DNA from: an uncultured Erysipelotrichaceae bacterium
Lineage (GTDB): Bacteria > Bacillota_I > Bacilli_A > RFN20 > CAG-826
Direction: 5' to 3'
NCBI GenBank assembly: GCA_902803375.1
Contig: CADCPN010000007.1
Span: 1-49,078, forward strand
Length of the DNA: 49,078 nt
Position numbers and translations under genes: made by a program. The notes beneath the pieces are model-generated. The model was not told the DNA's origin, searched no databases, and saw nothing but the letters and a program-made list of their open reading frames with translations. Of this stretch, positions 587 through 15,062 are shown in pieces. Within the stretch, counting starts at the first letter, position 1, and each line of letters opens with the position of its first letter.

Positions 587-1807
587 TTAGATCGCAGCTT
601 CGGTCTTCGGATCGAAGAACTTGACCTTAGAAAGGTTGAAGGCAAGCTTAACCTTATCGCCAATCTTGATTTCCTTCTCCGCGTTGAACTTCGCGACGAG
701 GTCAATTCCGCCGAAGTCACTATGGAGATAATATTCAGAGCCAAGGAGCTCGGCGACTTTGATTTCGGTCTCGAATACGGCGCCAGGATAGGCTTTCGCG
801 GTATCGGAGCCTTCGCCGTGAATATCTTCTGGGCGCAGGCCAAGGACGAGGTCTTCCGGCAAAGTCTTGCCAGCGATGACTTCCTTCGGCAGCTTGATGG
901 TCTCGCCAGTTGCAAAAGTAACGACGCCATCGTTATATTTAACCTTGAAGAAGTTCATCGACGGGGAGCCGATGAAGCCAGCGACGAATAGGTTGGCCGG
1001 GTTGTTGTAGATTTCCTTCGGGGTACCGATCTGCTGGACGCGGCCTAGCTTCATGACGACGATGCGGGAAGCCATGGTCATGGCTTCGGTCTGGTCGTGG
1101 GTGACGTAGATGGTGGTGGCGTTAAGCTGCTCGTGGAGGCGGACGATCTCAGAACGCATCTGAACGCGGAGCTTAGCATCGAGGTTAGACAAAGGTTCAT
1201 CCATCAAGAAGACCTTGGCGTAACGCACGATGGAACGGCCTAGGGCAACGCGCTGCCTCTGGCCGCCGGAGAGGGCCTTCGGCTTACGGTCGAGGTACTC
1301 CTCGATCTGAAGGATCCTCGCGGCTTCGTGGACTCTCTTATCGATTTCGGCCTTCGGAAGATGACGGATCTTCAGGCCGAAAGCCATATTGTCATAAACA
1401 GACATATGCGGATAAAGCGCATAGGATTGGAAGACCATGGCGATGTCACGGTCTTTCGGCTGTTTATCGTTGCAGAGCTCACCATCGATATAGAGCTCGC
1501 CGCGGGTAATGTCCTCCAAACCTGCGATCATACGCAAAGTGGTTGATTTTCCGCAACCGGACGGACCGACGAAGACGATGAATTCGTGCTTCTTGATGTC
1601 GAGATTGAAGTCGAAGACGGCCTGGACGTTGTTGTCATAGACCTTATCGATGTGGCGAAGGGAGACGAACGCGTTCTCGTGTCCTCCTTCTTCCTTCGCT
1701 TGAAGACTTGCCACGTTCTCTATTGGGGCAAGCCTTTCTGCAGGGTCAACTTTGACTTCCGCCTCTTCGGGCTGGGCCTTTTTCAGGTCCTCTTTTTTCT
1801 GTGCCAT
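587..1807 (-). CDS. malK: Maltodextrin/multi-sugar ABC transporter ATPase (MalK/MsmX type)
   Basis: Cytoplasmic ATPase energising sugar import, most likely with the MalF/MalG permeases at 8771-12558. The 406-residue protein has Walker A GPSGCGKST (about 81-89), the Q-loop VFQSYALYPH, signature LSGGQ (179-183), Walker B VFLMDEP (199-205), the D-loop and H237 of the H-loop, followed by a TOBE-type C-terminal domain. The start is set by AGGAGG five bases before ATG 1807; an ATG 22 codons upstream lacks such a site. About 45 charged residues precede the normal MsmX start, an unusual N-terminal extension. The gene stands alone, as a shared MsmX often does. A palindrome over its -10 suggests carbon control. 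Confidence 0.93.
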   Translation of the reverse strand: MAQKKEDLKKAQPEEAEVKVDPAERLAPIENVASLQAKEEGGHENAFVSLRHIDKVYDNNVQAVFDFNLDIKKHEFIVFVGPSGCGKSTTLRMIAGLEDITRGELYIDGELCNDKQPKDRDIAMVFQSYALYPHMSVYDNMAFGLKIRHLPKAEIDKRVHEAARILQIEEYLDRKPKALSGGQRQRVALGRSIVRYAKVFLMDEPLSNLDAKLRVQMRSEIVRLHEQLNATTIYVTHDQTEAMTMASRIVVMKLGRVQQIGTPKEIYNNPANLFVAGFIGSPSMNFFKVKYNDGVVTFATGETIKLPKEVIAGKTLPEDLVLGLRPEDIHGEGSDTAKAYPGAVFETEIKVAELLGSEYYLHSDFGGIDLVAKFNAEKEIKIGDKVKLAFNLSKVKFFDPKTEAAI

Positions 1808-1912
1808 ATTGGCCTCCTGTTTGTGCGAACAACAAATAAACTCCGAACCTTCGCTCCAACTCCTGGTGGGCAAAGTTTCGGTCCAGTCGATTTGCTAATT
1901 CGGCTTGCGTTT

Positions 1913-2082: not shown

Positions 2083-3069
2083 ATGACGAAAAAGATTATC
2101 TCCTCACCCGGAATGTGGCGCCGCATCGGCGCCCACGCTATCGACCTAGGCTTCATCCTTGTCACCGCGGCCATTGTGTATTTTAGTTTTGTTTTCCGCC
2201 TTTCCTTCAACGCGGAAAGCTATGATAAGGCACAGCAAGCCGCCGTGAAGGCCCAGCTAGATTCCTCTCTTTACGTGAAGTGGGATTCTACCTATGTTGC
2301 CTCTCCTGCCGATGTTGGCAGTTTTGAAAGCGTTGCCAGCTTCTCCTATAATACCACTCTTGCCAATGGGGTTAATGCCTCCTATTCGATGCTGGATAAC
2401 CTCCATGATTACTACACCCTTAATCGTGAAGCGTATGGAGAGAGGAAACTTAGCGAAGAAGTCTTCGAAAGCGACGTCCTCGCCATCGGTTCTCCTCTTT
2501 CTAACATCGCCTCCATCGAAAAGAACTCAGCTTCTCATTTTGCGATTACCTTAACGGATAAGAACGCCTTCTCTACGACTAGGGACTTCCTGCTAAAGCG
2601 TTATAAAGCCGCCGTTACCGAGGTCAATGACTCTAAACTAGTCAGCACCTATGCCGAAGAGGCAGCCTCCTATACCCGCTTTGCGGTTTTGATGCTTATT
2701 CCTACTACCGCCGGAAGCGCCCTACTCTATACGCTTCTCATCCCGCTTTGCCTCCCCAACGGTAAAAGTCTAGGCAAGCTCTTCCTTCACCTCGTCGTGC
2801 TTAGCAAAGATGGGTATGAACTAAAGAAAATCTGGCTATTGCCACGTTCCTTATCCTATATCGTCATCGAATTGCTTCTTGGCGTAGCTAGTTTTGGCGC
2901 TACTTTCCTCATCTCCTACACCATGTGCATGTTCATGAAGGAGCATCGCTGCATCCACGATCTCCTCTCCAACTCGGTCGTGGCCGAGGAAGAGACCTCT
3001 TTCTGGTTTAAAGACGAGGTCGATGAAGAGGAATATCTTGCGAGGAACCCTGAAAATGAAGCCTATTAG
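2083..3069 (+). CDS. RDD family membrane protein
   Basis: The 328-residue protein starts with the RDD signature MWRRIGAHAIDLGFIL (residues 11-26). It has membrane segments at about 18-38, 205-230 and 265-290, and an RDD-like stretch NGKSLGKLFLHLVVLSKDG near 225. The 160-residue stretch between the first two helices probably faces outward. RDD proteins are membrane proteins of unclear function; some have been linked to ion transport. The next gene overlaps its end by 14 bases, so the two are one transcription unit and perhaps one complex. The mRNA is probably leaderless (promoter at 2046-2074). The function of this member is unknown. Confidence 0.8.
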   Translation: MTKKIISSPGMWRRIGAHAIDLGFILVTAAIVYFSFVFRLSFNAESYDKAQQAAVKAQLDSSLYVKWDSTYVASPADVGSFESVASFSYNTTLANGVNASYSMLDNLHDYYTLNREAYGERKLSEEVFESDVLAIGSPLSNIASIEKNSASHFAITLTDKNAFSTTRDFLLKRYKAAVTEVNDSKLVSTYAEEAASYTRFAVLMLIPTTAGSALLYTLLIPLCLPNGKSLGKLFLHLVVLSKDGYELKKIWLLPRSLSYIVIELLLGVASFGATFLISYTMCMFMKEHRCIHDLLSNSVVAEEETSFWFKDEVDEEEYLARNPENEAY

Positions 3070-4114
3070 ATCTGGGATTCCCCGCCCGGAACCCCAAAAG
3101 GTTCTTCTCTCTTTCTTGAGTAACTATGTCTTCGTTTGCATTTTGACACTCGTTCTCTATTTTGCGGCCGCCTTTCCGATCCTCCATTCCACCTCTTCTT
3201 ATCTTTCCGCCTCTTCCTATATTGAAAATACCGAGGTGGCGGCAGGGTTCACCTTAAAGGCGAATCTTTCCTATGAACCCTATAAAGAAGCATGTGAGAA
3301 TTTTTATCTTCACTCCTATGGAGAAGAGTTAAAAGAAGCCTATAACGAAGCAAATTCCACCTCTTTTACCCTCAATCACATCTATAACATCCTCGTCTTA
3401 AGACTGCCGGTCTCCCCTTCTCCTAGCGACTATAAGACCGATTATTTCGCCTATCCCCTCAATGAAGATGGCACCGTTAACGCCGATGGGCTAGGACTTA
3501 TCGCTAGGGACTTAGGCTCCCGGGGCTATGACGATGTTAGGGATATCTACTACACCGGCTATTCAAGAATCCAGGATAATCTCCTCATTTTCGATTCCAC
3601 ATACGCGAAAGCAAAAGGCGATATCCGCGCGATGGAGGGGGCTTCCCGCTTCGCTTGCTTAAGCTTCTCGCTACTAATAGTCGAAGTCCTCTTTCCGTTT
3701 TTTGCTAAATTCGGCAGAAGGCCAGGAGAATTAATTTTTAAGGTCTGCTATCTTAACCGCAACGGCTTTGGGGCAAGTTTCTATAAATCTTTGCTGCGTG
3801 CCCTCATCGAGCTTCTTCTTGCTAGCATTGGCATTTATTACCTTAACCCCTATTTCGTCACCCTCTTCCTCGTCTTCCCCTATTTTATTGAAGGAATCAC
3901 GATGCTATTTGATGAATATAACCGTGGCTATATCGAAAGAATTCTTTCTCTTATCCCCGCCGACTTCAAAGCGGAGAAGATCTACGCTAACGAAGCCGAA
4001 ATGCTTCAGGATAGAGAAAATAGCCTGGCCGCTTACGCAGAACCAGGCTATACAGGAAAACTTAGCGAAGTCGATTCCTTCTCCTCAAAGGCCGAGGGAA
4101 AGAAGAGCAATTAA
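3056..4114 (+). CDS. Second RDD-like membrane protein
   Basis: The 352-residue product has the same layout as its upstream neighbour. A membrane helix lies near residues 20-40, a roughly 160-residue Tyr/Ser-rich outer region follows, and a cluster of hydrophobic helices lies at about 195-290 with RPGELIFKVCYLNRNG matching the RDD stretch of the neighbour. It is probably a diverged tandem duplicate. ATG 3056 was preferred over an in-frame ATG 11 codons earlier because AGGAA lies about 8 bases upstream and the larger overlap would be unusual. The C-terminus is a charged cytoplasmic tail. Its last 30 bases overlap the convergent gene at 4085-4372. Confidence 0.75.
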   Translation: MKPIRSGIPRPEPQKVLLSFLSNYVFVCILTLVLYFAAAFPILHSTSSYLSASSYIENTEVAAGFTLKANLSYEPYKEACENFYLHSYGEELKEAYNEANSTSFTLNHIYNILVLRLPVSPSPSDYKTDYFAYPLNEDGTVNADGLGLIARDLGSRGYDDVRDIYYTGYSRIQDNLLIFDSTYAKAKGDIRAMEGASRFACLSFSLLIVEVLFPFFAKFGRRPGELIFKVCYLNRNGFGASFYKSLLRALIELLLASIGIYYLNPYFVTLFLVFPYFIEGITMLFDEYNRGYIERILSLIPADFKAEKIYANEAEMLQDRENSLAAYAEPGYTGKLSEVDSFSSKAEGKKSN

Positions 4115-4441: not shown

Positions 4442-7165
4442 TTAGGCGTTAAGGGCTTTGACACCGATAACGGTATCTAGGCTCTTGATGGGGGTAGAGG
4501 AAGAAAGGGAAGTGAGCTCACCGCGGGTATCGAGATAGAGGTCATAGCCAGAGAAGTCGACGTTAGCGTGAGAGCCAACCCCATTGGCGTGGACGATCTT
4601 GTACTCCTTGCCGTTTTTAGAATCGGTGATTGTGTAGATGAGGGTGCCGCCATTATCGAGTTCTTTCACTTCTAAGGCGCGGCAACCTTCCTTTTCGAGG
4701 TGAAGTCCATCGACGCCGGTCTTGAGACTGATAAGTTTCTGATAGGAAACGAAGATATCGGCGTTCTTGACCTTGAGGCTGTAGTCGAGGGCGTTCTCCT
4801 CATAGCTTGCGTTATAGGAGTTGCCGTCGCAGGTTCCATCGCTCTTCGTTTTGGTGCGAAGGAACTCTTCGCCCGCGAGCATAAAGGAGGTTCCTTGGCT
4901 CGTCAAGACGACGGAATTGGCGAGAAGAGGCATGTAGTGAAGCTGTTCTTCGCTGGCTGAGGTAGTGGCGCCACCATCGGTGGAATAGGCGAGCCTTACA
5001 CGGTCGGAAAGGGTGTAGTTATCGTGGCAAGAAGCGTAGACAACAGACTTATTCGGATCGGTAGTGAGGGTAGAAACCGGATCGGAGCCAGTATAGCCCT
5101 TGATGCCATAGCCAACTCCTTCTCCGGAGACTGGGGAAGCAGATTCCGTAGCCCAGCCTCTTTCGCTCGTGGCGCTCATACCGCCTTTGATAAGGGAATC
5201 GCGGATCTTGTCGTTGAAGGCGCCATAGCCCTGAAAATCCGCGATGTACTTCTGCGCGCCGGTCTTTTCGGAATAGGAAGAGGTTCCTCCGGTCCACGGC
5301 TCGCCATAGACGACGATGTTATCGTAGGTCTTCTTCTTCAAGTTGGCGACTAGTTCATTCATGGTCTCAAGGTCATGAAGGCCCATGAGGTCGAAGCGGA
5401 AGCCGCCGAGCTTATATTCGCTGGCCCAGAATTCGGTGGATTCCTTTATGAACTTGCGCATCATGAAATGGTCAGAAGCGGTCTCATTGCCGCAGCCAGA
5501 GCCATTTGAGAGGGCTCCTTTTGAGTCATAACGGAAGTAATAGCCTGGAGCCAAAACATCGAAGTTAGAGCCCTTAGCGGCGTTAACGTGGTTATAGACG
5601 ACGTCCATGATGATGTTTATGCCGGCGTCGTGGTAGGCCTTGACGAGGGATTTGAATTCCTTGATGCGGGCATAGCCATCGAAGGGGTCGCTGGAATAGG
5701 AGCCTTCGAGAACATTGTAGTTAAGCGGGTTATAGCCCCAGTTGAACTCGGTATGGACTTCATCATTCGCCGCGTCGAAGATCGGCTGAAGCTGGACGGC
5801 GTTGACGCCGAGCTCCTTGATGTGGTCGAAGCCAGTTTTTACCGTGGTATCGCCTTCGGTGTAGGTGGTGCCAGAAAGATAGGCGCCTTCATAGGTTTTT
5901 GCCTTCTTTTTCGCGGAAGCATCGCTGCTCCAGGAAGAAGAGGAGGTAAGATCGACGACGTGGGTCTCGTAGACGGAGAGCTCCTTGCGGTCGTAGTTAA
6001 TTGGGGCGACTTCATTCCAGCCGCTTGGGTTGGTCTTGGCGAAGTCGACGATCATGCCGCGCACGCCATTGACGCCAGCTGCCTTGGCATAGGGGTCAAC
6101 GACTTCAATTCCTTGGGTGTAGGTGCCGTTTTTGACGAAATAGGTGTAATACTTGCCTTCGAGGTTGCCATCCACTTCCGCCATCCAGACGCCTTTTTCG
6201 CCTTTGGTCATCGTGATTTCCTCAAACTCGTCATCGCCTTTAACGGCGTCAACGGAAAGCGGGGTACCTGATTTATAAAGACGAAGGGTCATCGAGGAGC
6301 TAAATGGACTCCAGACTTTAAAGGTGGTCTTGGAGGCGCTATAAACGGCGCCAAGGTCATCGCCGTCATAGGCATATGTGGCGTTGAAGGATTCGGTGCC
6401 ATAGAGTCTCTGGAAGGAGACCTTGGAGCTAAGGGTGGCCTTCGATTCGATGAAGGTGACTTCAAAGGTATATTCGGCGGTGAAGTCGATGTTGAAGCCT
6501 TCGACACCGGAGAAGTCCTTCTTCACAATCTTCTGGTTCTTTACGGTTGGCTCGCCAGAAGCGATGACTTCGCCGTTTTTCTTTAGGTTCCAGGAAGAAA
6601 ATGGGTTACTGAGTTCTGCGTAGAAGATGGTACTGGTGTACCAAGTCGCGGTTTTGATTGTGTCTAACACTTTGTACTCGCTATTGATATATGGGGTTTC
6701 ATCGCCCTCTTTGAAATAGATGTGGTGAATCTTATTGGCGTCGGCTGGATAGTCGGCAAGGGTGACGAGAATATCGCTCGTCTGCCCGGTCCAGTCTCCT
6801 TCTCCGCTCGGCTTGAAGATGATGCCGAGGGTGGAGTCGGGGGTGCAGCCTTCGATGTCGCTTAGCTTATAAGCGGCGATGCCACCGCCCACTTCATTAA
6901 AGCCATTGAAGGCGAACTGCTTGCCAGCGTTGGCGACGCTATCCCAAAGCCAGAGGGCTTTCTTGGAATAGTCGCCGCTATCCATCAAATAATGGATCTG
7001 AACGGATTCCTCACTATAGGTAGGCGCGGGGCCAAGGGTAGTTTTCTCCTCGTCCCCCGAGGCTTTTCCTCCTTGGCTAGAGGGGTTGTCATTGCTTCCG
7101 CAGGAAGAGAGAAGCAAGGCAGGCGCGGCTAAGACAAACAGAAGCGTGACTTTCTTTTTGCTCAT
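4442..7165 (-). CDS. pulA: Cell-surface type I pullulanase lipoprotein (GH13)
   Basis: Debranching enzyme that hydrolyses alpha-1,6 links in pullulan, amylopectin and limit dextrins outside the cell. The 907-residue precursor has a lipoprotein signal with lipobox LLSSC (Cys22). It then shows a CBM41-like starch-binding module with ALWLWD (about 56-160), a second beta domain, a CBM48-like domain (about 270-375) and the GH13 barrel. FNWGYNPLNYN (474-484) is the type I pullulanase signature. Expected catalytic residues are Asp592 (GFRFDLMG), Glu622 (YGEPW) and Asp715 (CHDNYTL). It is the last gene of the mal operon, 24 bases after the amylase gene, and a terminator follows. The length is typical of surface pullulanases. 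Confidence 0.92.
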   Translation of the reverse strand: MSKKKVTLLFVLAAPALLLSSCGSNDNPSSQGGKASGDEEKTTLGPAPTYSEESVQIHYLMDSGDYSKKALWLWDSVANAGKQFAFNGFNEVGGGIAAYKLSDIEGCTPDSTLGIIFKPSGEGDWTGQTSDILVTLADYPADANKIHHIYFKEGDETPYINSEYKVLDTIKTATWYTSTIFYAELSNPFSSWNLKKNGEVIASGEPTVKNQKIVKKDFSGVEGFNIDFTAEYTFEVTFIESKATLSSKVSFQRLYGTESFNATYAYDGDDLGAVYSASKTTFKVWSPFSSSMTLRLYKSGTPLSVDAVKGDDEFEEITMTKGEKGVWMAEVDGNLEGKYYTYFVKNGTYTQGIEVVDPYAKAAGVNGVRGMIVDFAKTNPSGWNEVAPINYDRKELSVYETHVVDLTSSSSWSSDASAKKKAKTYEGAYLSGTTYTEGDTTVKTGFDHIKELGVNAVQLQPIFDAANDEVHTEFNWGYNPLNYNVLEGSYSSDPFDGYARIKEFKSLVKAYHDAGINIIMDVVYNHVNAAKGSNFDVLAPGYYFRYDSKGALSNGSGCGNETASDHFMMRKFIKESTEFWASEYKLGGFRFDLMGLHDLETMNELVANLKKKTYDNIVVYGEPWTGGTSSYSEKTGAQKYIADFQGYGAFNDKIRDSLIKGGMSATSERGWATESASPVSGEGVGYGIKGYTGSDPVSTLTTDPNKSVVYASCHDNYTLSDRVRLAYSTDGGATTSASEEQLHYMPLLANSVVLTSQGTSFMLAGEEFLRTKTKSDGTCDGNSYNASYEENALDYSLKVKNADIFVSYQKLISLKTGVDGLHLEKEGCRALEVKELDNGGTLIYTITDSKNGKEYKIVHANGVGSHANVDFSGYDLYLDTRGELTSLSSSTPIKSLDTVIGVKALNA

Positions 7166-7188: not shown

Positions 7189-8763
7189 TTAATCGATGGT
7201 GAGAATTGCGGTTGAGGAAGAAGCTAACGTGAGCTTGCCTCCATTTAAGGATGGGGAGACGCCGATGGTGTTAATGCTATCGAATAACTTCGCAGAAGAA
7301 GGCACATCGAAGTCGATATTGCCTTCCCTAGCGGTATTGGTAACAACAAGCATCTTCTTGCTCTTATCTTGGGAGATGAGGGTAAAGGCGCAAATATAGT
7401 CGCTATTGGTGGAGATGGCCTCTAAGCTTGCGTTTTGGATCCAGGGGATGGAATTACGGACTTCGCCCAGCTTGCGGTAATGTGAGAGCAAAGAGGTTGG
7501 GTCCTTATAAAGGTCATCCGCTCCTTCTTCTACCTGGTTTAGGTTGGCGTAGAGGGTTGCAACGCTTGGGTCGGGACACTTGGTCTCCCCCTTCTTATCC
7601 GATTTAGACCAAATCATAGGAAGACGTCTCATCGCATCGCTGTTTTCCTTGCCTCTAGTTCCTTCTAGTCCGATTTCCTCGCCATAGTAGATATAGGGGG
7701 TGCCTGGAGTTAGGTAGAGGAGAGAGGCCGCTAGTTTAGCGGAGTTCCCGTTTAAGGATTTGCTGCTTCTATCCTGGTCATGGTTAGAGAGGAAGAAGCT
7801 AGGATAGGCGTCGGGGTTGCGTGATTTGGCCGCGGTTATCTCCTCCTCGAGTTTTTTGGAGAGGGAGTCTCCGCTCGTGAAGCCTTTGGCGGTCGTGATG
7901 AAGTCGTTATTGGCGCTGATGCTCGTATCGAAATCGAAGAAGCTATCGAGCTTCGAATCGAAATAACGGTAATAGGAAGAGCCGGTGCACCAGGCCTCGC
8001 CTACGAAATAAGCTTCGGGGCAAGCTTCTTTCAAGAAGGTGCAGACCTCGGCGTTCTTCTCGTGTTGGTTGTAGTAATAATAGAGGACCGCGTCGAGGCG
8101 GAAGCCATAGATGCCCTTCTCCATCCAGAAATTGAGGATGTTCTTCACTTCCTTGCGGAAGGCAAGGGAATCCCAGTTGAAGTCAGGCATCGAGGAACTA
8201 AAGCGCGCCTCGTAATATGCCTCGCCGAACTTGGCGTAGCCTGTAGAATCACTCTCGCTCCAGTTATACCAATCGGCTTTGGAAGACTCTTCCTTGTTGC
8301 CCGCGAGGTAATCGCGGTAGCTTTGGGCAAACCAGGGGTGGCGGGAGCCAGAATGGTTGAGGACCATATCGAGGGTTACGCGAATGCCATGTTTTTTTAG
8401 CTCCGCGACCATGTCAGTGAAGTCATCCATCGTCCCGAATTCGCTATTAACGCCATAGAAGTCGGTCACGTCATAGCCATGATAGGAAGAGGTTGGGTAA
8501 ATCGGCATGAGCCAAACATTGGAAACGCCTAGATCCTGCAAATATTGGGCTTTTTCGGCCACGCCTTTGAAGTCGCCGACCCCATCGCCGTTGCTATCGT
8601 AAAAGCTTCTGACGAATATCTCATAAGATAGTGATCCGTTGGCGTTGTCGACGTCTCCTTTTAAGTTGTAATAATGGGGGCCGCTGCCGCAGCTACCCAA
8701 AATGAGGGCCCCAAGAGAGGCCCCCATGATCGACAGCAAATTTTTATGTTCGCTAGATTTCAT
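7189..8763 (-). CDS. Extracellular alpha-amylase lipoprotein (GH13)
   Basis: Secreted GH13 enzyme expected to hydrolyse alpha-1,4 links of starch or maltodextrin. The 524-residue precursor has lipobox LILGSC (Cys25). The GH13 conserved regions are DMVLNHSG (132-139), GFRLDAV with nucleophile Asp224, VGEAW with acid/base Glu256 and SNHDQDR with Asp329. A short C-terminal beta domain follows. NGDGVGDFKG is a calcium-site-like loop common in GH13_36-type enzymes. ATG 8763 lies 7 bases after the malG stop; the longer open frame overlaps malG and would lose the signal peptide. Oligo-1,6-glucosidase or cyclomaltodextrinase specificity cannot be excluded. Confidence 0.9.
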   Translation of the reverse strand: MKSSEHKNLLSIMGASLGALILGSCGSGPHYYNLKGDVDNANGSLSYEIFVRSFYDSNGDGVGDFKGVAEKAQYLQDLGVSNVWLMPIYPTSSYHGYDVTDFYGVNSEFGTMDDFTDMVAELKKHGIRVTLDMVLNHSGSRHPWFAQSYRDYLAGNKEESSKADWYNWSESDSTGYAKFGEAYYEARFSSSMPDFNWDSLAFRKEVKNILNFWMEKGIYGFRLDAVLYYYYNQHEKNAEVCTFLKEACPEAYFVGEAWCTGSSYYRYFDSKLDSFFDFDTSISANNDFITTAKGFTSGDSLSKKLEEEITAAKSRNPDAYPSFFLSNHDQDRSSKSLNGNSAKLAASLLYLTPGTPYIYYGEEIGLEGTRGKENSDAMRRLPMIWSKSDKKGETKCPDPSVATLYANLNQVEEGADDLYKDPTSLLSHYRKLGEVRNSIPWIQNASLEAISTNSDYICAFTLISQDKSKKMLVVTNTAREGNIDFDVPSSAKLFDSINTIGVSPSLNGGKLTLASSSTAILTID

Positions 8764-8770
8764 TGAATAA

Positions 8771-9703
8771 TTAACCTTTGACGGCACCACCGGTGACACC
8801 GCCGACGTAGTACTTCTGCGTCGCGATGAAGAGGGCGGCCATTGGGATGGCAACGACTACGGAACCAGCTGCATAGCGGGTGTAGTAGGCGTTGAGGTAG
8901 TTCTGCTCATCGGTAGCCCATTTGTAGAGGCCGATGGCGACGGTCCAGTTGTCGGTATTCTGAAGACCGATTATGTATGAAGAGGTGATGTAATCACCCC
9001 AAGGACCCATGAAGGAAGTAAGAATCGTGTAAACGACGATCGGCTTCGCGAGCGGAAGGATGATGTTCCAGAAGATCTGGGCGCGGCTCGCGCCGTCAAT
9101 CATCGCGGCCTCATCGATGGATTTGGAGATCGTGTCGAAGAAGCCTTTGGAAATGAAGAAGCCCATGCCAGTGCCTGCGCTATAGAGAATAACGAGCGAC
9201 CAGAACTGGCCTTGGAGATGGAAGATCTCCTTCATGACCCAGTAGTTGATAATCATACCAAGGAACCCTGGGAACATGCCGAGGATGAGGTTTAGCTTCA
9301 TAAACGTCGGCCTGGCCTTGAAGCGGAAACGGGACAAGGCGTAGGCGGTGGCGAGGACGAAGATGGTAGAGATGATACAGACGAGAATAGCGACAACCAA
9401 GGTGTTTAGGAACCAAAGGGAGAAGCCGGTCATCTCGATGCCACCTAGGTTATTGGCAACAATGCCATCAAAGGTGGTATTGTTTGCCGCATAGCTAGGA
9501 TGGGTGTTTGGGACGAAGAGGTAATAGTAATTTAGCAACGTCCACTGCGATGGGGCGAACTTAGCGCGGCTGGAGACGCCTTCTCCAGAAAAAGACTGGA
9601 GGAAGAGCCAGAGGATTGGAAGGACCCAAACGACCGCGGAAATCGTGAGGATGATGTAGATAATCGTATTGACGAGAATACGATTCGCTTTCATGGATTT
9701 CAC
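8771..9703 (-). CDS. malG: Maltodextrin ABC transporter permease MalG
   Basis: Inner permease subunit that pairs with MalF. The 310-residue protein has six predicted membrane helices and the EAA loop EAAMIDGASRAQIFWNIILP, which docks on the ATPase. It starts with GTG 9703, which overlaps the malF stop (GTGA) and has AAGGAGG ten bases upstream; the in-frame ATG at 9694 is too far from that site. The stretch between helices 1 and 2 is long, as in MalG proteins. The tight overlap implies co-translation with malF. Confidence 0.92.
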   Translation of the reverse strand: MKSMKANRILVNTIIYIILTISAVVWVLPILWLFLQSFSGEGVSSRAKFAPSQWTLLNYYYLFVPNTHPSYAANNTTFDGIVANNLGGIEMTGFSLWFLNTLVVAILVCIISTIFVLATAYALSRFRFKARPTFMKLNLILGMFPGFLGMIINYWVMKEIFHLQGQFWSLVILYSAGTGMGFFISKGFFDTISKSIDEAAMIDGASRAQIFWNIILPLAKPIVVYTILTSFMGPWGDYITSSYIIGLQNTDNWTVAIGLYKWATDEQNYLNAYYTRYAAGSVVVAIPMAALFIATQKYYVGGVTGGAVKG

Positions 9704-12558
9704 TGGAACTGGTCCTCCTTAGCAACGCTGGAACTCTTGTTGTAGATGATCATGGAGATGATGGCGCAGATGATGAAGACGAAGATGCCGATTGCGGAGG
9801 CAAGTCCGTACTGCTCGTTGTTCTTTGCCGTCACCAGCTTATAGATGTAGGTTATGAAGAGGTCGGTCTCGCCAAGACGGACGTTAGCGATGACGTTCGG
9901 GTTATTTGGTCCGCCTCCGGTAAGGAAGTAGATGACGCCGAAGTTATTAATGTTGCCAATGAAGGTCTGAATGAGGGACGGGCCGGTAACGAAGAAGATA
10001 TAAGGCATCGTGATCTTGAAAAACTGGGTAGCTGCGCCAGCGCCGTCAATCCTGGAGGACTCATAGAGGTCATTCGGGATGTTCAGGAGGATACCGGTGG
10101 TCTGAAGAATGGTATATGGGATACCGATCCAGATGTTGACGAGGATGATGATCGCCTTGGTGGAGAGCGCGTTATTGGTGGTGTCTTTACCGAAGCCTAA
10201 GTCGGTTCCGAAGGTATTGTACCACCACTTTCCTAGTGCGCCGCCATCCTTGAGAATCAAGGACAGGCCGATAAGGGAGATGAACTGCGGAACAGCGATG
10301 GAGAGGACGAAGACGAACCTCCAGAAGCTCTTGAACTTGATGCCGTCCTTATTGATCATCAAGGCATAGATGATGCCGAGGAAATAGTTGGTGAAGGTGG
10401 CAAGAATCGCCCAGACGATGGTCCAGACGAAGGTGAGGACCAAGCCTTTGCCTAAGCCGCTGGACGCGCCGCCGCCGAAGTCGAGGAGCTTCGAGAAGTT
10501 CTCGAACCCGACCCAAGTAAACAATGCTCCCGGCGGTGTATGCTGGTTATCGTAGTTGGTAAAGCCGACGAGGATGGAGAGCAATAGTGGCATGAGGACG
10601 AAGACCACGACGCCAAGGACAGGAAGGGCAAGAAGGGTGACATGGAAGTTCTCGTCAAGCAAGCTCTTGCCTGTCTTTTTGAAGCCCGATGGACGACCTT
10701 CGAATCTTTCCGGATGAGAGGAAGCATATTCGCTAGAAGCTTTGACCACTTCTGCCTTTTTGGCATCGATGGTAGAAGCGTCCATATGGGCTTCCACCTC
10801 TTTGATGAGCTCTTGGGCGAGATTATAGGTGAACTTAAAGTTGATGAGCATGTAGTTCTCAGCGGAGAAGCGAGCATACTCGATGGCGGTGTAATTGGTC
10901 TTTAGCGCCTTATAGTCACGCTTATAGGCATGATCGGCGTTATTGATGTCTTCCTTGTGGGAGGCATTGACCTCTTTAACGGTTGGAAGGCTTAGGAGGA
11001 CACCCTTGATGGTCTTGCAATGATCAACGTACTCCTCTTTCGTGATTTTGCCTTCTTTATAGGCAGCCTTCTCGGCATTGAAGCGAGAGAGGACTTCGGC
11101 GCGCCTAGCGGCGATGCCTTCATACTTCTTCTCAATTTCAGCGAGGTCGGATTCGTGCTTTTTGACGATTCTAGCCTGCTCCGCCTTATTTTCTTCGTTA
11201 GCCTTCTCGAAGTTAGCTTTTCCTTCTTCGTAGACTTCGACGAGCTTGGAGTAGTTTTCGTAGAAGGTTTTCTTCTGCTCGAAGGAGGCAGCGTTAAGGT
11301 AATAGACGTTGAACTTGCCGTACTTGGAGTGGTTGAGAACAGAATCGGCGTGGGCGAAGCAGCTTGCGGTCTTTTCGGCCTCGACGATTCTGGAGGAATA
11401 GGCGCGGATGCTCTCAGAGATTGCGCCAACCTTATTCATATGGGCGGTCTTGAGGTTAACTTCCTTATTGGAGAGGTTAAGCATCTTGACTCTGACTTTT
11501 CTGGCTTCTTTCTTCTTGGCAGAGGCGGCCTTCAGGTCGTTTTTAAGGGTGAGGTCATTGGCGGTAGCCATCATGGCCTGATACTGGGCGGAGAGGGAGG
11601 CGACCTCCTTATCCATGCTTTCGATTTTCTCCAGGTAAGAGGCTTTAGACTCCAAAGCCTCAGCTTTTGCAACGAGCTTGGCTTTCTTCTTCTCTAATGA
11701 ATTGAGGTTAGCGTGGTATTCCTTATCGGAAAGGATGGTCTGTTTGAGGAGATACCGGCCATAGGCCTTATCCATCTTGGATTCCTCCAGGCTATCGACC
11801 TTAGCAAAGATATCGCTATAGCGAGAATAGAGGGAATCGAGGGGAACGCTCTTCTCATAGAGGCGGTTCTTCTCCATATCCTCGTAGATCTGCTCGCTAT
11901 AAGGGGTGGCAACTTTGTTTCGTCTATCGAATTCAGTGAAGTGGGCGATGCGGTAATTGTCATAGCCGGCGTTGATGGATCTCTTCCAGATATAGAAGAA
12001 AAATACAACAGAGAAGACAACCAAAATGCCATTGATTAGGGCGAGGAGGGAGTTATCACCACTGACAGCCGAGCAGATCTCGGAATCCAGGAAGGGGTCA
12101 TAGACACAGACCTGTTCGGTTTTCTTGGTACCGAGGGTGGTAAGTAAGGCAATCGCCTTGAATCCCGAAAGAGCCATGAAGACGATGTAGCCGATTTCAA
12201 ACACCATGTAGCAGACGGCGTTGAAGTATTGCTTATGGGTCAAGCTGCTGGTTCCAAACAGGAAGAAGGAAGCGCGTCCTGCTTTATCGTTGAACTTCCA
12301 CTTATGGCCGATGTCCTTGAAGAAAGCCTTAATGCGGAGATAGGCTTTCCCGAAGAATAGCCCGATGGTTTTGAGGATGTTCCAAAGAGCGCGTCCGATG
12401 TCAACGAAGAAGCCAGCAATCTTCATAAGCAAGGCAAAGCACCCGGCCGTGAAGGAATGCCAGAAGTAAACGTACCCTGGCTCTGGCTCGACTTCCCTGC
12501 CGAGGCAAGTTCGGTTCTCCGCTACGGTAAGCTCCTTCAGTTTGTTTCGCTCATCCAT
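9700..12558 (-). CDS. malF: Giant MalF permease with coiled-coil N-terminal extension
   Basis: The C-terminal third (about 638-945) is a MalF-type permease with six helices and the EAA loop YESSRIDGAGAATQFF (832-847). The first 635 residues are not part of the usual family. They comprise an amphipathic/hydrophobic stretch (about 38-85), membrane helices at about 113-140 and 171-192 bracketing an outer loop with Cys151 and Cys162, then about 420 highly charged, Lys/Glu/Ala-rich residues with strong coiled-coil character (about 275-615). Usual MalF or MsmF proteins are 290-520 residues. ATG 12558 is preceded by AGAAAGGAAC. The malG start overlaps its stop. The extension has no known function; it could dimerise the transporter, bind a cytoplasmic partner or act as a scaffold. 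Confidence 0.88.
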   Translation of the reverse strand: MDERNKLKELTVAENRTCLGREVEPEPGYVYFWHSFTAGCFALLMKIAGFFVDIGRALWNILKTIGLFFGKAYLRIKAFFKDIGHKWKFNDKAGRASFFLFGTSSLTHKQYFNAVCYMVFEIGYIVFMALSGFKAIALLTTLGTKKTEQVCVYDPFLDSEICSAVSGDNSLLALINGILVVFSVVFFFYIWKRSINAGYDNYRIAHFTEFDRRNKVATPYSEQIYEDMEKNRLYEKSVPLDSLYSRYSDIFAKVDSLEESKMDKAYGRYLLKQTILSDKEYHANLNSLEKKKAKLVAKAEALESKASYLEKIESMDKEVASLSAQYQAMMATANDLTLKNDLKAASAKKKEARKVRVKMLNLSNKEVNLKTAHMNKVGAISESIRAYSSRIVEAEKTASCFAHADSVLNHSKYGKFNVYYLNAASFEQKKTFYENYSKLVEVYEEGKANFEKANEENKAEQARIVKKHESDLAEIEKKYEGIAARRAEVLSRFNAEKAAYKEGKITKEEYVDHCKTIKGVLLSLPTVKEVNASHKEDINNADHAYKRDYKALKTNYTAIEYARFSAENYMLINFKFTYNLAQELIKEVEAHMDASTIDAKKAEVVKASSEYASSHPERFEGRPSGFKKTGKSLLDENFHVTLLALPVLGVVVFVLMPLLLSILVGFTNYDNQHTPPGALFTWVGFENFSKLLDFGGGASSGLGKGLVLTFVWTIVWAILATFTNYFLGIIYALMINKDGIKFKSFWRFVFVLSIAVPQFISLIGLSLILKDGGALGKWWYNTFGTDLGFGKDTTNNALSTKAIIILVNIWIGIPYTILQTTGILLNIPNDLYESSRIDGAGAATQFFKITMPYIFFVTGPSLIQTFIGNINNFGVIYFLTGGGPNNPNVIANVRLGETDLFITYIYKLVTAKNNEQYGLASAIGIFVFIICAIISMIIYNKSSSVAKEDQFQ

Positions 12559-13112: not shown

Positions 13113-14375
13113 TTACTTAGCTTCAGCACGTAGTAGGTCGCATTCAGCCTTAAGGAAGAGCTCCCAAGTATTTGCGGTTTCCGGAAGCTTACCATCGAGG
13201 AGGGCGTTGCCGATTTCGGCACCACGATCCCACCAGCGGCCTTCGGCAGAGGTGGACTGGATGGCGGCGTACTGAGCCTGTTCGGTTAGAGCCTTGCCAC
13301 CGAGGGTGACGTTAGCGGTGTAACGAGAATCCTTCTGGGCTTCGAGGTTGCACGGGAGAGCCTGTCTCTTTTCGAAGCGAACGAGCTGGGATTCCTTGTT
13401 GGTAAGGAGATCACCAAGGATGATAGCGGCCTTCTGTTCAGCGACGGAAGCGTACTTGTTGACGACGTAGAGCTTGGTGCCGGTGAAGGAACCCATCTGA
13501 TGCTTGGTGCCGGTGATGGTGAAGGTCGGAAGCTTGACGGCTTTGAGGTTGTTGCAGACAGGCTTGAGGTCAGCTTCCATCCAAGTGCCGGAAACGGCGG
13601 CGATCATCTCGCCAGAGGTGAAGCCTTCTTTGATTTTGTCGTTGGAGCCAACAACAAGGGTCTTATTAAGATAGCGCGGCTGGAGAAGTCCATTGATGTA
13701 CTTCGCAGCGGCAACGCCTTCTGCGCCATCCCACGTGATGTCATAGATAGGCTTGTTGTTTGCGCTCATCTTCCACTTGAGGGATTCGGTTCCGCAAACT
13801 CCTTCAGCGAAGAAGAAGGATGGGACATACCAGCCATTGCCGACGTCCATGAGGAAGGTCTTCTTGCCAGCTTCGGCAACGGAGAGGATGCTCTCAAGGG
13901 AGCCAGCCTGCTCAGCGGTTAGCGCATCGCCGTTGTACCAAAGGAAGTAACCGTTGTCAGCGGTGATTGGGAAGCCATAGGTGTCGTTGCCGTACTTAGC
14001 AGCGGTGACAGCGGTGGCGGCGTTCTTCTCAGAAATGGTCTTGGCGAAGGAAGCCGGGAGCTTGGTGATATAGTTCTTCTGAACAAGGTTGGAGAGCTGG
14101 TCATCAGCGATGGCGACGAGGGACGGATAGCCTTTGACGGTCGGGTCGGTTGCAAGGGTGGATCCGCCATCAGCTTCGGAAACAGCCTTAAAGGTGACGT
14201 TGATCTTATCATCGGCGGCGGCGGTCTTGTTGTAATTGTCGACGATGGTGGTGAGGACGGCTTCTTCTTCAGCCGGAGCCCAGACGACGATGCTGGTTCC
14301 AGAGGCTTTGCCGCAGGAAGCGAGCGACATGAGTCCTAGAAGGAATGCACCAGCAGAAATGACAGTCTTTTTCAT
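13113..14375 (-). CDS. malE: Maltodextrin-binding lipoprotein MalE
   Basis: Solute-binding protein that delivers maltodextrins to MalFGK. The 420-residue precursor has lipobox LMSLASC (Cys21) and then the start typical of family 1 sugar-binding proteins (IVVWAPAEEEAVLTTIVDNYN). Further family features are FPITADNGYFLWYN (about residues 140-153), an aromatic-rich cleft and a C-terminal ...WELFLKAECDLLR helix. ATG 14375 has AGGAGA nine bases upstream. It lies 30 bases after the preceding lipoprotein gene, so both share an mRNA. Downstream, an inserted repeat element and a terminator-like hairpin separate it from malF. Confidence 0.9.
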   Translation of the reverse strand: MKKTVISAGAFLLGLMSLASCGKASGTSIVVWAPAEEEAVLTTIVDNYNKTAAADDKINVTFKAVSEADGGSTLATDPTVKGYPSLVAIADDQLSNLVQKNYITKLPASFAKTISEKNAATAVTAAKYGNDTYGFPITADNGYFLWYNGDALTAEQAGSLESILSVAEAGKKTFLMDVGNGWYVPSFFFAEGVCGTESLKWKMSANNKPIYDITWDGAEGVAAAKYINGLLQPRYLNKTLVVGSNDKIKEGFTSGEMIAAVSGTWMEADLKPVCNNLKAVKLPTFTITGTKHQMGSFTGTKLYVVNKYASVAEQKAAIILGDLLTNKESQLVRFEKRQALPCNLEAQKDSRYTANVTLGGKALTEQAQYAAIQSTSAEGRWWDRGAEIGNALLDGKLPETANTWELFLKAECDLLRAEAK

Positions 14376-14405: not shown

Positions 14406-14942
14406 TTAGGCAATAGACTTTAGACGGCAAGCAGCGCTCCAGCCTTCAAGGGCAACGCCGAATTTGTTGTATTCGAAGGTGTAGGTGGCATCTTTGAGAG
14501 CAATGATGTTCTTTGAGCTGAGGTCATCTCCTTCTTTGACTTTGTCTGCGTCTTGAAAACTAACGTTGGCAGCGAGGATTTCATCACTGACGCCGGCGCT
14601 CTTCCAGTCGACTTTGCCGTAGCCGAAGTCGCTGTTCCAGCCGTGGTTGAAGGTGAACTTATATTGGGTGTCTTTCTTGATCTCGATGGTAAGGGTATAG
14701 AAAGAATTCTCGGTGTGACCTTCGTTAACAACTTTAAAGAGCTGTTCTTCTTTGGCTTGCTCTGGCTTCCAATCCCAAGCAGAGCCAGTGATCTGGAGGT
14801 CAAGCACATCCTTAGAGATAGAACCGGAAGCGGTTTCGAGGTCATCAGCGCCGAAACGACTATCAGCGGCTTTGGTTCCACAGGAAGCGAGGCCCATGGT
14901 CGCGGCGGCAAGAGCAACGGCGATCAGTTTTTTGTTAATCAT
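14406..14942 (-). CDS. Putative starch-binding accessory lipoprotein
   Basis: First gene of the mal operon. The 178-residue precursor starting MINKKLIAVA has lipobox GLASC (Cys21). The mature part is a single beta-rich domain with ITGSAWDWKPEQ, KKDTQYKFTFNHGWNSD and a C-terminal TYTFEYNKFG. Trp-rich ITGS..W and FTFNHGW patterns resemble starch-binding modules of SusE/CBM type, where exposed tryptophans stack on glucose rings. ATG 14942 has AAAGGAGA upstream; an ATG ten codons earlier has no site. Context (malE, amylase, pullulanase) supports surface glycan capture, but binding is inferred. Confidence 0.7.
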   Translation of the reverse strand: MINKKLIAVALAAATMGLASCGTKAADSRFGADDLETASGSISKDVLDLQITGSAWDWKPEQAKEEQLFKVVNEGHTENSFYTLTIEIKKDTQYKFTFNHGWNSDFGYGKVDWKSAGVSDEILAANVSFQDADKVKEGDDLSSKNIIALKDATYTFEYNKFGVALEGWSAACRLKSIA

Positions 14943-15062
14943 GAAATTACTTCTCCTTTCATTTCTTTTCAAAAATTTTTAGGGCGATTTCGCTTAGGAC
15001 ACTATCAACTAGTTGTCCCGGGACTCCTCGGCCCTTAGTAATTTTTGATCAACACGCTGACT

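Follow-up and report, generated by a model that had tools for sequence, protein, structure and literature searches.

What does a MalF permease subunit do with some 415 additional residues, and on which side of the membrane do these lie? Among ABC importers MalFGK2 serves as the reference, and importers of this kind are regulated through MalK and its partners. The malF gene considered here belongs to a Candidatus Alloenteromonas-like member of Bacilli and lies within a stretch of 49,078 nucleotides, the whole of which is referred to as the window. A sequence-only reading had described a single uninterrupted 952-codon gene, the last third of which was MalF, the preceding 635 residues being an extension of membrane helices and coiled coil that might tether the transporter to a partner or cluster it with a surface amylase and pullulanase.

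An intact gene with a MalF core

The malF gene is one unbroken frame of 952 codons, opening with ATG and having an AAGGA stretch that resembles a ribosome-binding site (RBS) just upstream; it is real and intact. The following features were distinguished, together with the evidence that supports each of them:

9700-12558, minus strand: malF, whole gene, 952 aa (frame, ATG with AAGGA-like RBS; intact homologues in 20 other contigs)
11959-12558, minus strand: residues 1-200, N-terminal membrane pair (hhalign to ordinary MalFs; AlphaFold2, AF2)
10693-11946, minus strand: residues about 205-622, insert in the TM2-TM3 loop, predicted to be cytoplasmic and all-helical (loop length, AF2, conservation, dN/dS)
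11359-11658, minus strand: residues 301-400, least conserved and length-variable, possible distal arm (majority-residue fraction, indels)
10684-11358, minus strand: residues 401-625, conserved half of the insert (alignment motifs)
9703-10692, minus strand: residues 623-952, TM3 and MalF core with EAA motif YESSRIDGAGAATQFFKITMPYI (PF00528, E. coli MalF model, 2r6g alignment, TM3 match)

A trivial explanation of such a gene would be that a separate N-terminal gene was fused to malF by a sequencing or assembly error. This is refuted, and retains practically no probability, because 20 further contigs, drawn from many MAGs, contain intact full-length homologues of the same architecture; in addition, dN/dS is low on either side of the junctions.

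The last third was correctly recognized as MalF, since PF00528 (BPD_transp_1) covers residues 726-939 with 49.3 bits (curated cut-off 26.4) and the E. coli MalF model matches residues 680-937. Over the latter residues NF008232 (enteric-type MalF, equivalog) scores 152.6 bits, below its cut-off of 392, the best stretch comprising profile positions 262-510 only; the protein is a relative of MalF and not the enteric equivalog. The genes for MalG, MalE and MalK are present in its neighbourhood, as for a MalF of the CUT1 type of ABC permease, and the window MalF is a subunit of an otherwise complete MalE/F/G/K (MalEFGK) maltodextrin importer. The MalK-coupling EAA motif stands at residues 832-854, its core residues being invariant in the alignment of group A (the long MalFs of the window type, see below), and with this motif intact the permease looks functional. 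Likeness to E. coli MalF (MalFGK2, CUT1; PDB 2r6g, 3fh6) extends to a core aligned over 2r6g chain residues about 259-504, to a recognizable TM3 (E. coli 72-99), to the EAA motif and to an operon with MalE and MalG. The two proteins differ in their loops. E. coli MalF has a periplasmic P2 loop of about 180 aa after TM3, whereas in the window MalF FTNYDNQHTPPG is followed at once by the core, with no P2 domain between TM3 and TM4; conversely, the TM2-TM3 loop, very short in E. coli, has about 430 cytoplasmic residues in the window MalF.

A helical domain in the TM2-TM3 loop

Only part of what precedes the core is additional. The N-terminal region consists of an amphipathic/hydrophobic helix (residues 28-88), TM1 (about 111-139) and TM2 (about 170-190). 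A profile of ordinary MalFs matches the N-terminal 200 residues of the window MalF and group A (hhalign probability 99.8, E 2e-28), and the ordinary MalFs of the order, mostly of about 500-550 aa, also have two hydrophobic segments before the core. The membrane pair is thus ordinary for the lineage, both it and the core being homologous to those of ordinary MalFs of about 500 aa in the order; the core is likewise homologous in the MalFs of other Bacilli in the class (about 450-550 aa). The membrane helices consequently no longer count as part of the novelty, and the proposed extension of residues 1-635 shrinks to residues about 205-622. The cysteines that had been pointed out in the outer loop are indeed found between TM1 and TM2 (Cys151 and Cys162, positions about 12070-12110), in a predicted beta hairpin. 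This pair is present in 11 of the 16 group A MalFs and absent in five, and a disulfide between the two residues is possible, though not universal in group A. Note also that two MalFs, L059 (genome G007) and L061 (G178), have five extra N-terminal hydrophobic segments, making seven before the core, an extension of another kind.

The additional part is defined by the loop between TM2 and TM3, which spans about 430-448 residues in the window MalF and 34-38 in most of the ordinary MalFs read in the order, these being devoid of the helical domain; this contrast places the extra sequence at residues about 205-622. It forms a long K/E-rich helical region free of membrane segments between two hydrophobic segments of MalF. 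Such a region had been read as a coiled coil of about 340 residues, of which the K/E-rich helical character stands; the length is about 415 residues, and heptad-like periodicity is significant only at 306-338 (shuffle p 0.004) and 436-501 (p<0.001), so that the term helical domain with coiled-coil arms describes the insert better. AlphaFold2 modelled the insert alone entirely as helices (mean pLDDT 91.2), and the insert was likewise all-helical in the model of the whole MalF, both being single-chain models in which the longest helices reach 66 residues (about 100 angstrom). An ordered all-helical fold is thus predicted with high confidence.

The insert ends just before TM3. The charges of its flanks (basic) and of the TM1-TM2 loop (acidic) agree with a cytoplasmic location. 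TM3 of ordinary MalFs aligns with E. coli MalF 72-99, and in E. coli MalF the periplasmic P2 loop comes after TM3 (PMC2246101). Since the insert precedes TM3, while P2 follows it, the sequence supports a position on the cytoplasmic side, distinct from P2, as the sequence-only reading had proposed.

Distribution of long MalFs

That reading had left room for all related MalFs lacking the extra region; relatives do have the insert. MalFs were compared in 196 genomes of the same order, a long MalF being one of at least 875 aa and group labels being taken from pairwise BLASTP of the pre-core regions. The long genes that were read comprise group A (window type, 15 distinct genes compared), group B (eight genes) and a single gene, L036, of 1514 residues, with TM2-TM3 loops of 373-569 residues in groups A and B and about 1000 in L036. 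In the tree of the core, group A, which is found in two families, is monophyletic (support 100/100), and A, B and L036, i.e. all long MalFs, form one clade (94/88). The only short member of this clade, L047, is a long gene with a frame change in its assembly, and neither the core tree nor the loop lengths reveal any loss of the insert inside the clade. Outside the order, sampling of the class and phylum yielded mostly MalF frames of 430-600 aa, together with two longer open frames of 698 and 759. Mid-sized TM2-TM3 loops of 210 aa (L042, genome G168) and 222 aa (L059) occur outside the long clade, and at least that of L042 seems to have expanded independently.

When 192 genomes of the order were searched with a profile of the A insert, only long MalFs matched, in 18 genomes; a 19th genome gave a marginal match covering only the loop-end motif. 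In the genome of the window itself MalF is the one match. These profile searches show the window type of insert to be exclusive to MalF. The same profile has no match in group B genomes, and the comparison of the A and B inserts by hhalign (probability 3.2) detects no significant homology, their best local match, FY.NY..LV..Y..GK, not being within a significant alignment; homology of the two inserts consequently rests only on their position and on the tree. A plasmid search for the insert gave no match. The scan of named genomes returned 20 loci, including Candidatus Alloenteromonas pullicola and Candidatus Alloenteromonas pullistercoris, which mostly are the same contigs as in the order-wide set.

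Conservation and selection

Conservation is unevenly spread over the insert. The majority-residue fraction is 0.34 in residues 301-400 and 0.45-0.57 in the rest, and this part, in which indels occur, is the most variable in length and sequence. Residues 401-625 contain the near-invariant motifs YGKFN.YY, LPT.K, KEE..AYKRD.K.LKTNYT and P..Y.GKP. Four close pairs give dN/dS ratios of 0.07-0.13 for the insert, and a fifth, more distant pair gives 0.28; the ratio of the core is lower in every pair, i.e. the insert evolves faster. These ratios show that the insert is under purifying selection.

These observations bear on two alternative explanations. A largely neutral ornament, an expanded loop in which changes of length are tolerated and which persists because it is harmless, would account for a range from 373 to about 1000 residues across the clade and for the poorly conserved tip; however, a dN/dS well below 1, the invariant motifs and the fact that no loss was seen in the long clade make it rather improbable. 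Alternatively, the insert could link one MalF to another and so gather transporters into clusters in the membrane, e.g. by antiparallel pairing of the long helices seen in the models, for which the two stretches of heptad-like periodicity would be suited. We regard this as quite unlikely, given that the highest conservation is found mostly in shorter helices around 409-436 and 524-557 and mostly outside the periodic long ones.

Comparison with known proteins and folds

Residues 193-632 of the window MalF have no significant match in Pfam, NCBIfam or the PDB sequences. Among its relatives single weak matches occur. The best PDB sequence match (E 0.02) is to a coiled coil. Foldseek retrieved nothing at E <= 0.001 for the insert model in PDB and BFVD, and the best VIA-align result (Z 11.0 over 98 residues) is within the range expected for helical bundles. 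Fold matches to the long helices of ABC exporters, to F-BAR and to BBSome fragments were rejected as generic helical similarity. The literature that we searched contains no description of a MalF with such a cytoplasmic insert, although large inserts in maltose permease subunits are already known elsewhere, in MalG of Thermotogales. The N-terminus of MalG lies inside, so the TM1-TM2 loop of this subunit is extracytoplasmic in Thermotogales. It is in this loop that MalG1 and MalG2 carry a hydrophilic region of about 500 aa (PMC2246101). The resemblance, drawn from the description, lies in the presence of a large hydrophilic insert in a subunit of a maltose permease, but both the subunit and the loop are different from those of the window MalF. 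A cytoplasmic insert in MalF has no counterpart in the papers searched.

The mal locus

The genes relevant to the importer are all on the minus strand:

587-1873, minus strand: malK-type ATPase with OB/TOBE regulatory domain (domain match)
4442-7165, minus strand: pullulanase-type lipoprotein, beyond malG (domain match, synteny)
7189-8853, minus strand: alpha-amylase lipoprotein, conserved neighbour beyond malG (domain match, synteny)
8771-9703, minus strand: malG, of normal length, with a GTG that overlaps the stop of malF (GTGA) (frame, domain and family matches)
13113-14375, minus strand: malE-type solute-binding lipoprotein with lipobox LASC, upstream of malF (domain match, synteny)

MalE, MalF and MalG are found together in most named loci, usually with the amylase, as far as the contig reaches. 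The amylase and the pullulanase each have a signal peptide with a lipobox (LSSC and LGSC, respectively), which should put them outside the membrane, whereas the insert would be inside. Provided that the lipobox signals have been interpreted correctly, the opposite membrane sides exclude direct contact of the insert with either enzyme, and the suggested clustering with them is not supported; from the broader idea of a tether, attachment to a cytoplasmic partner may hold. Upstream of malE, a small lipoprotein (14406-14972, minus strand) has a weak match to the pullulanase X25 domain (E 0.005), and a similar X25-like lipoprotein is upstream of malE in L082 and L083. An overlapping frame pair at 2083-4114 (plus strand), the first frame of which encodes an RDD-family membrane protein, also accompanies the mal cluster in many named loci.

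The malK frame encodes 428 aa from a TTG, or 406 aa from an internal ATG, and its orthologues are located near the long malF in most group A genomes. In group B genomes (those listed are G024, G121, G166, G099, G100, G126, G081 and G083) the best-matching MalK has an open frame of 451-551 aa and aligns with the window protein over residues about 4-313 only, which suggests a different or longer C-terminus. A second MalK of this kind is also present in several group A genomes.

These genes are pertinent to another explanation, in which the insert acts as an intramolecular regulator that leans on MalK or its regulatory domains and tunes ATPase coupling without a further partner, equivalent to inducer exclusion or trans-inhibition built into the permease. 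That the insert lies on the same side of the membrane as MalK, that its conserved half adjoins TM3, and that a MalK gene of the same type is close to the long malF in most group A genomes are all consistent with such a function. The best group B MalK match aligns over only part of the window protein and is not beside malF, so that no coupling to one MalK type is seen to be shared by the long MalFs, and we consider this regulator possible but doubtful.

A candidate docking arm on the cytoplasmic face

Our preferred, still tentative reading is that the insert constitutes a cytoplasmic docking arm near MalK, with a putative partner, in the MalEFGK importer. In an ancestor of the long clade, MalF would have gained a large helical domain within its short TM2-TM3 loop on the cytoplasmic side, and helices of the modelled length could form an arm able to reach past the MalK dimer, serving there for docking or as a scaffold. 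The conserved half (401-625) may contact something constant, either the transporter itself or a dedicated partner, and the variable tip (301-400) may be a spacer. Such an arm could place a cytosolic maltodextrin enzyme or a regulator at the pore exit, or hold transporters together. In favour of the docking arm are the loop lengths, the single clade, the invariant motifs, the low dN/dS, the pLDDT of 91, the restriction to MalF, the conserved neighbourhood and the intact EAA motif; against it are the lack of a family or fold match hinting at function and the faster evolution of the insert relative to the core, as a spacer would show. With the A and B inserts being without demonstrable homology, one partner common to all would be conjectural. 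We also consider unlikely, if worth stating, that the insert represents a new class of built-in cytoplasmic ABC importer module. Such a module would bring one particular maltodextrin enzyme or regulator of the cytosol to the transporter exit, coupling uptake to metabolism, and would have had a single origin in the order, followed by divergence into two or more types.

A conserved, ordered cytoplasmic domain of about 415 residues in MalF may thus offer a handle on the regulation of this importer, or on the coupling between uptake and cytosolic starch metabolism, in gut Bacilli, and it indicates that the TM2-TM3 loop of MalF tolerates very large domains.
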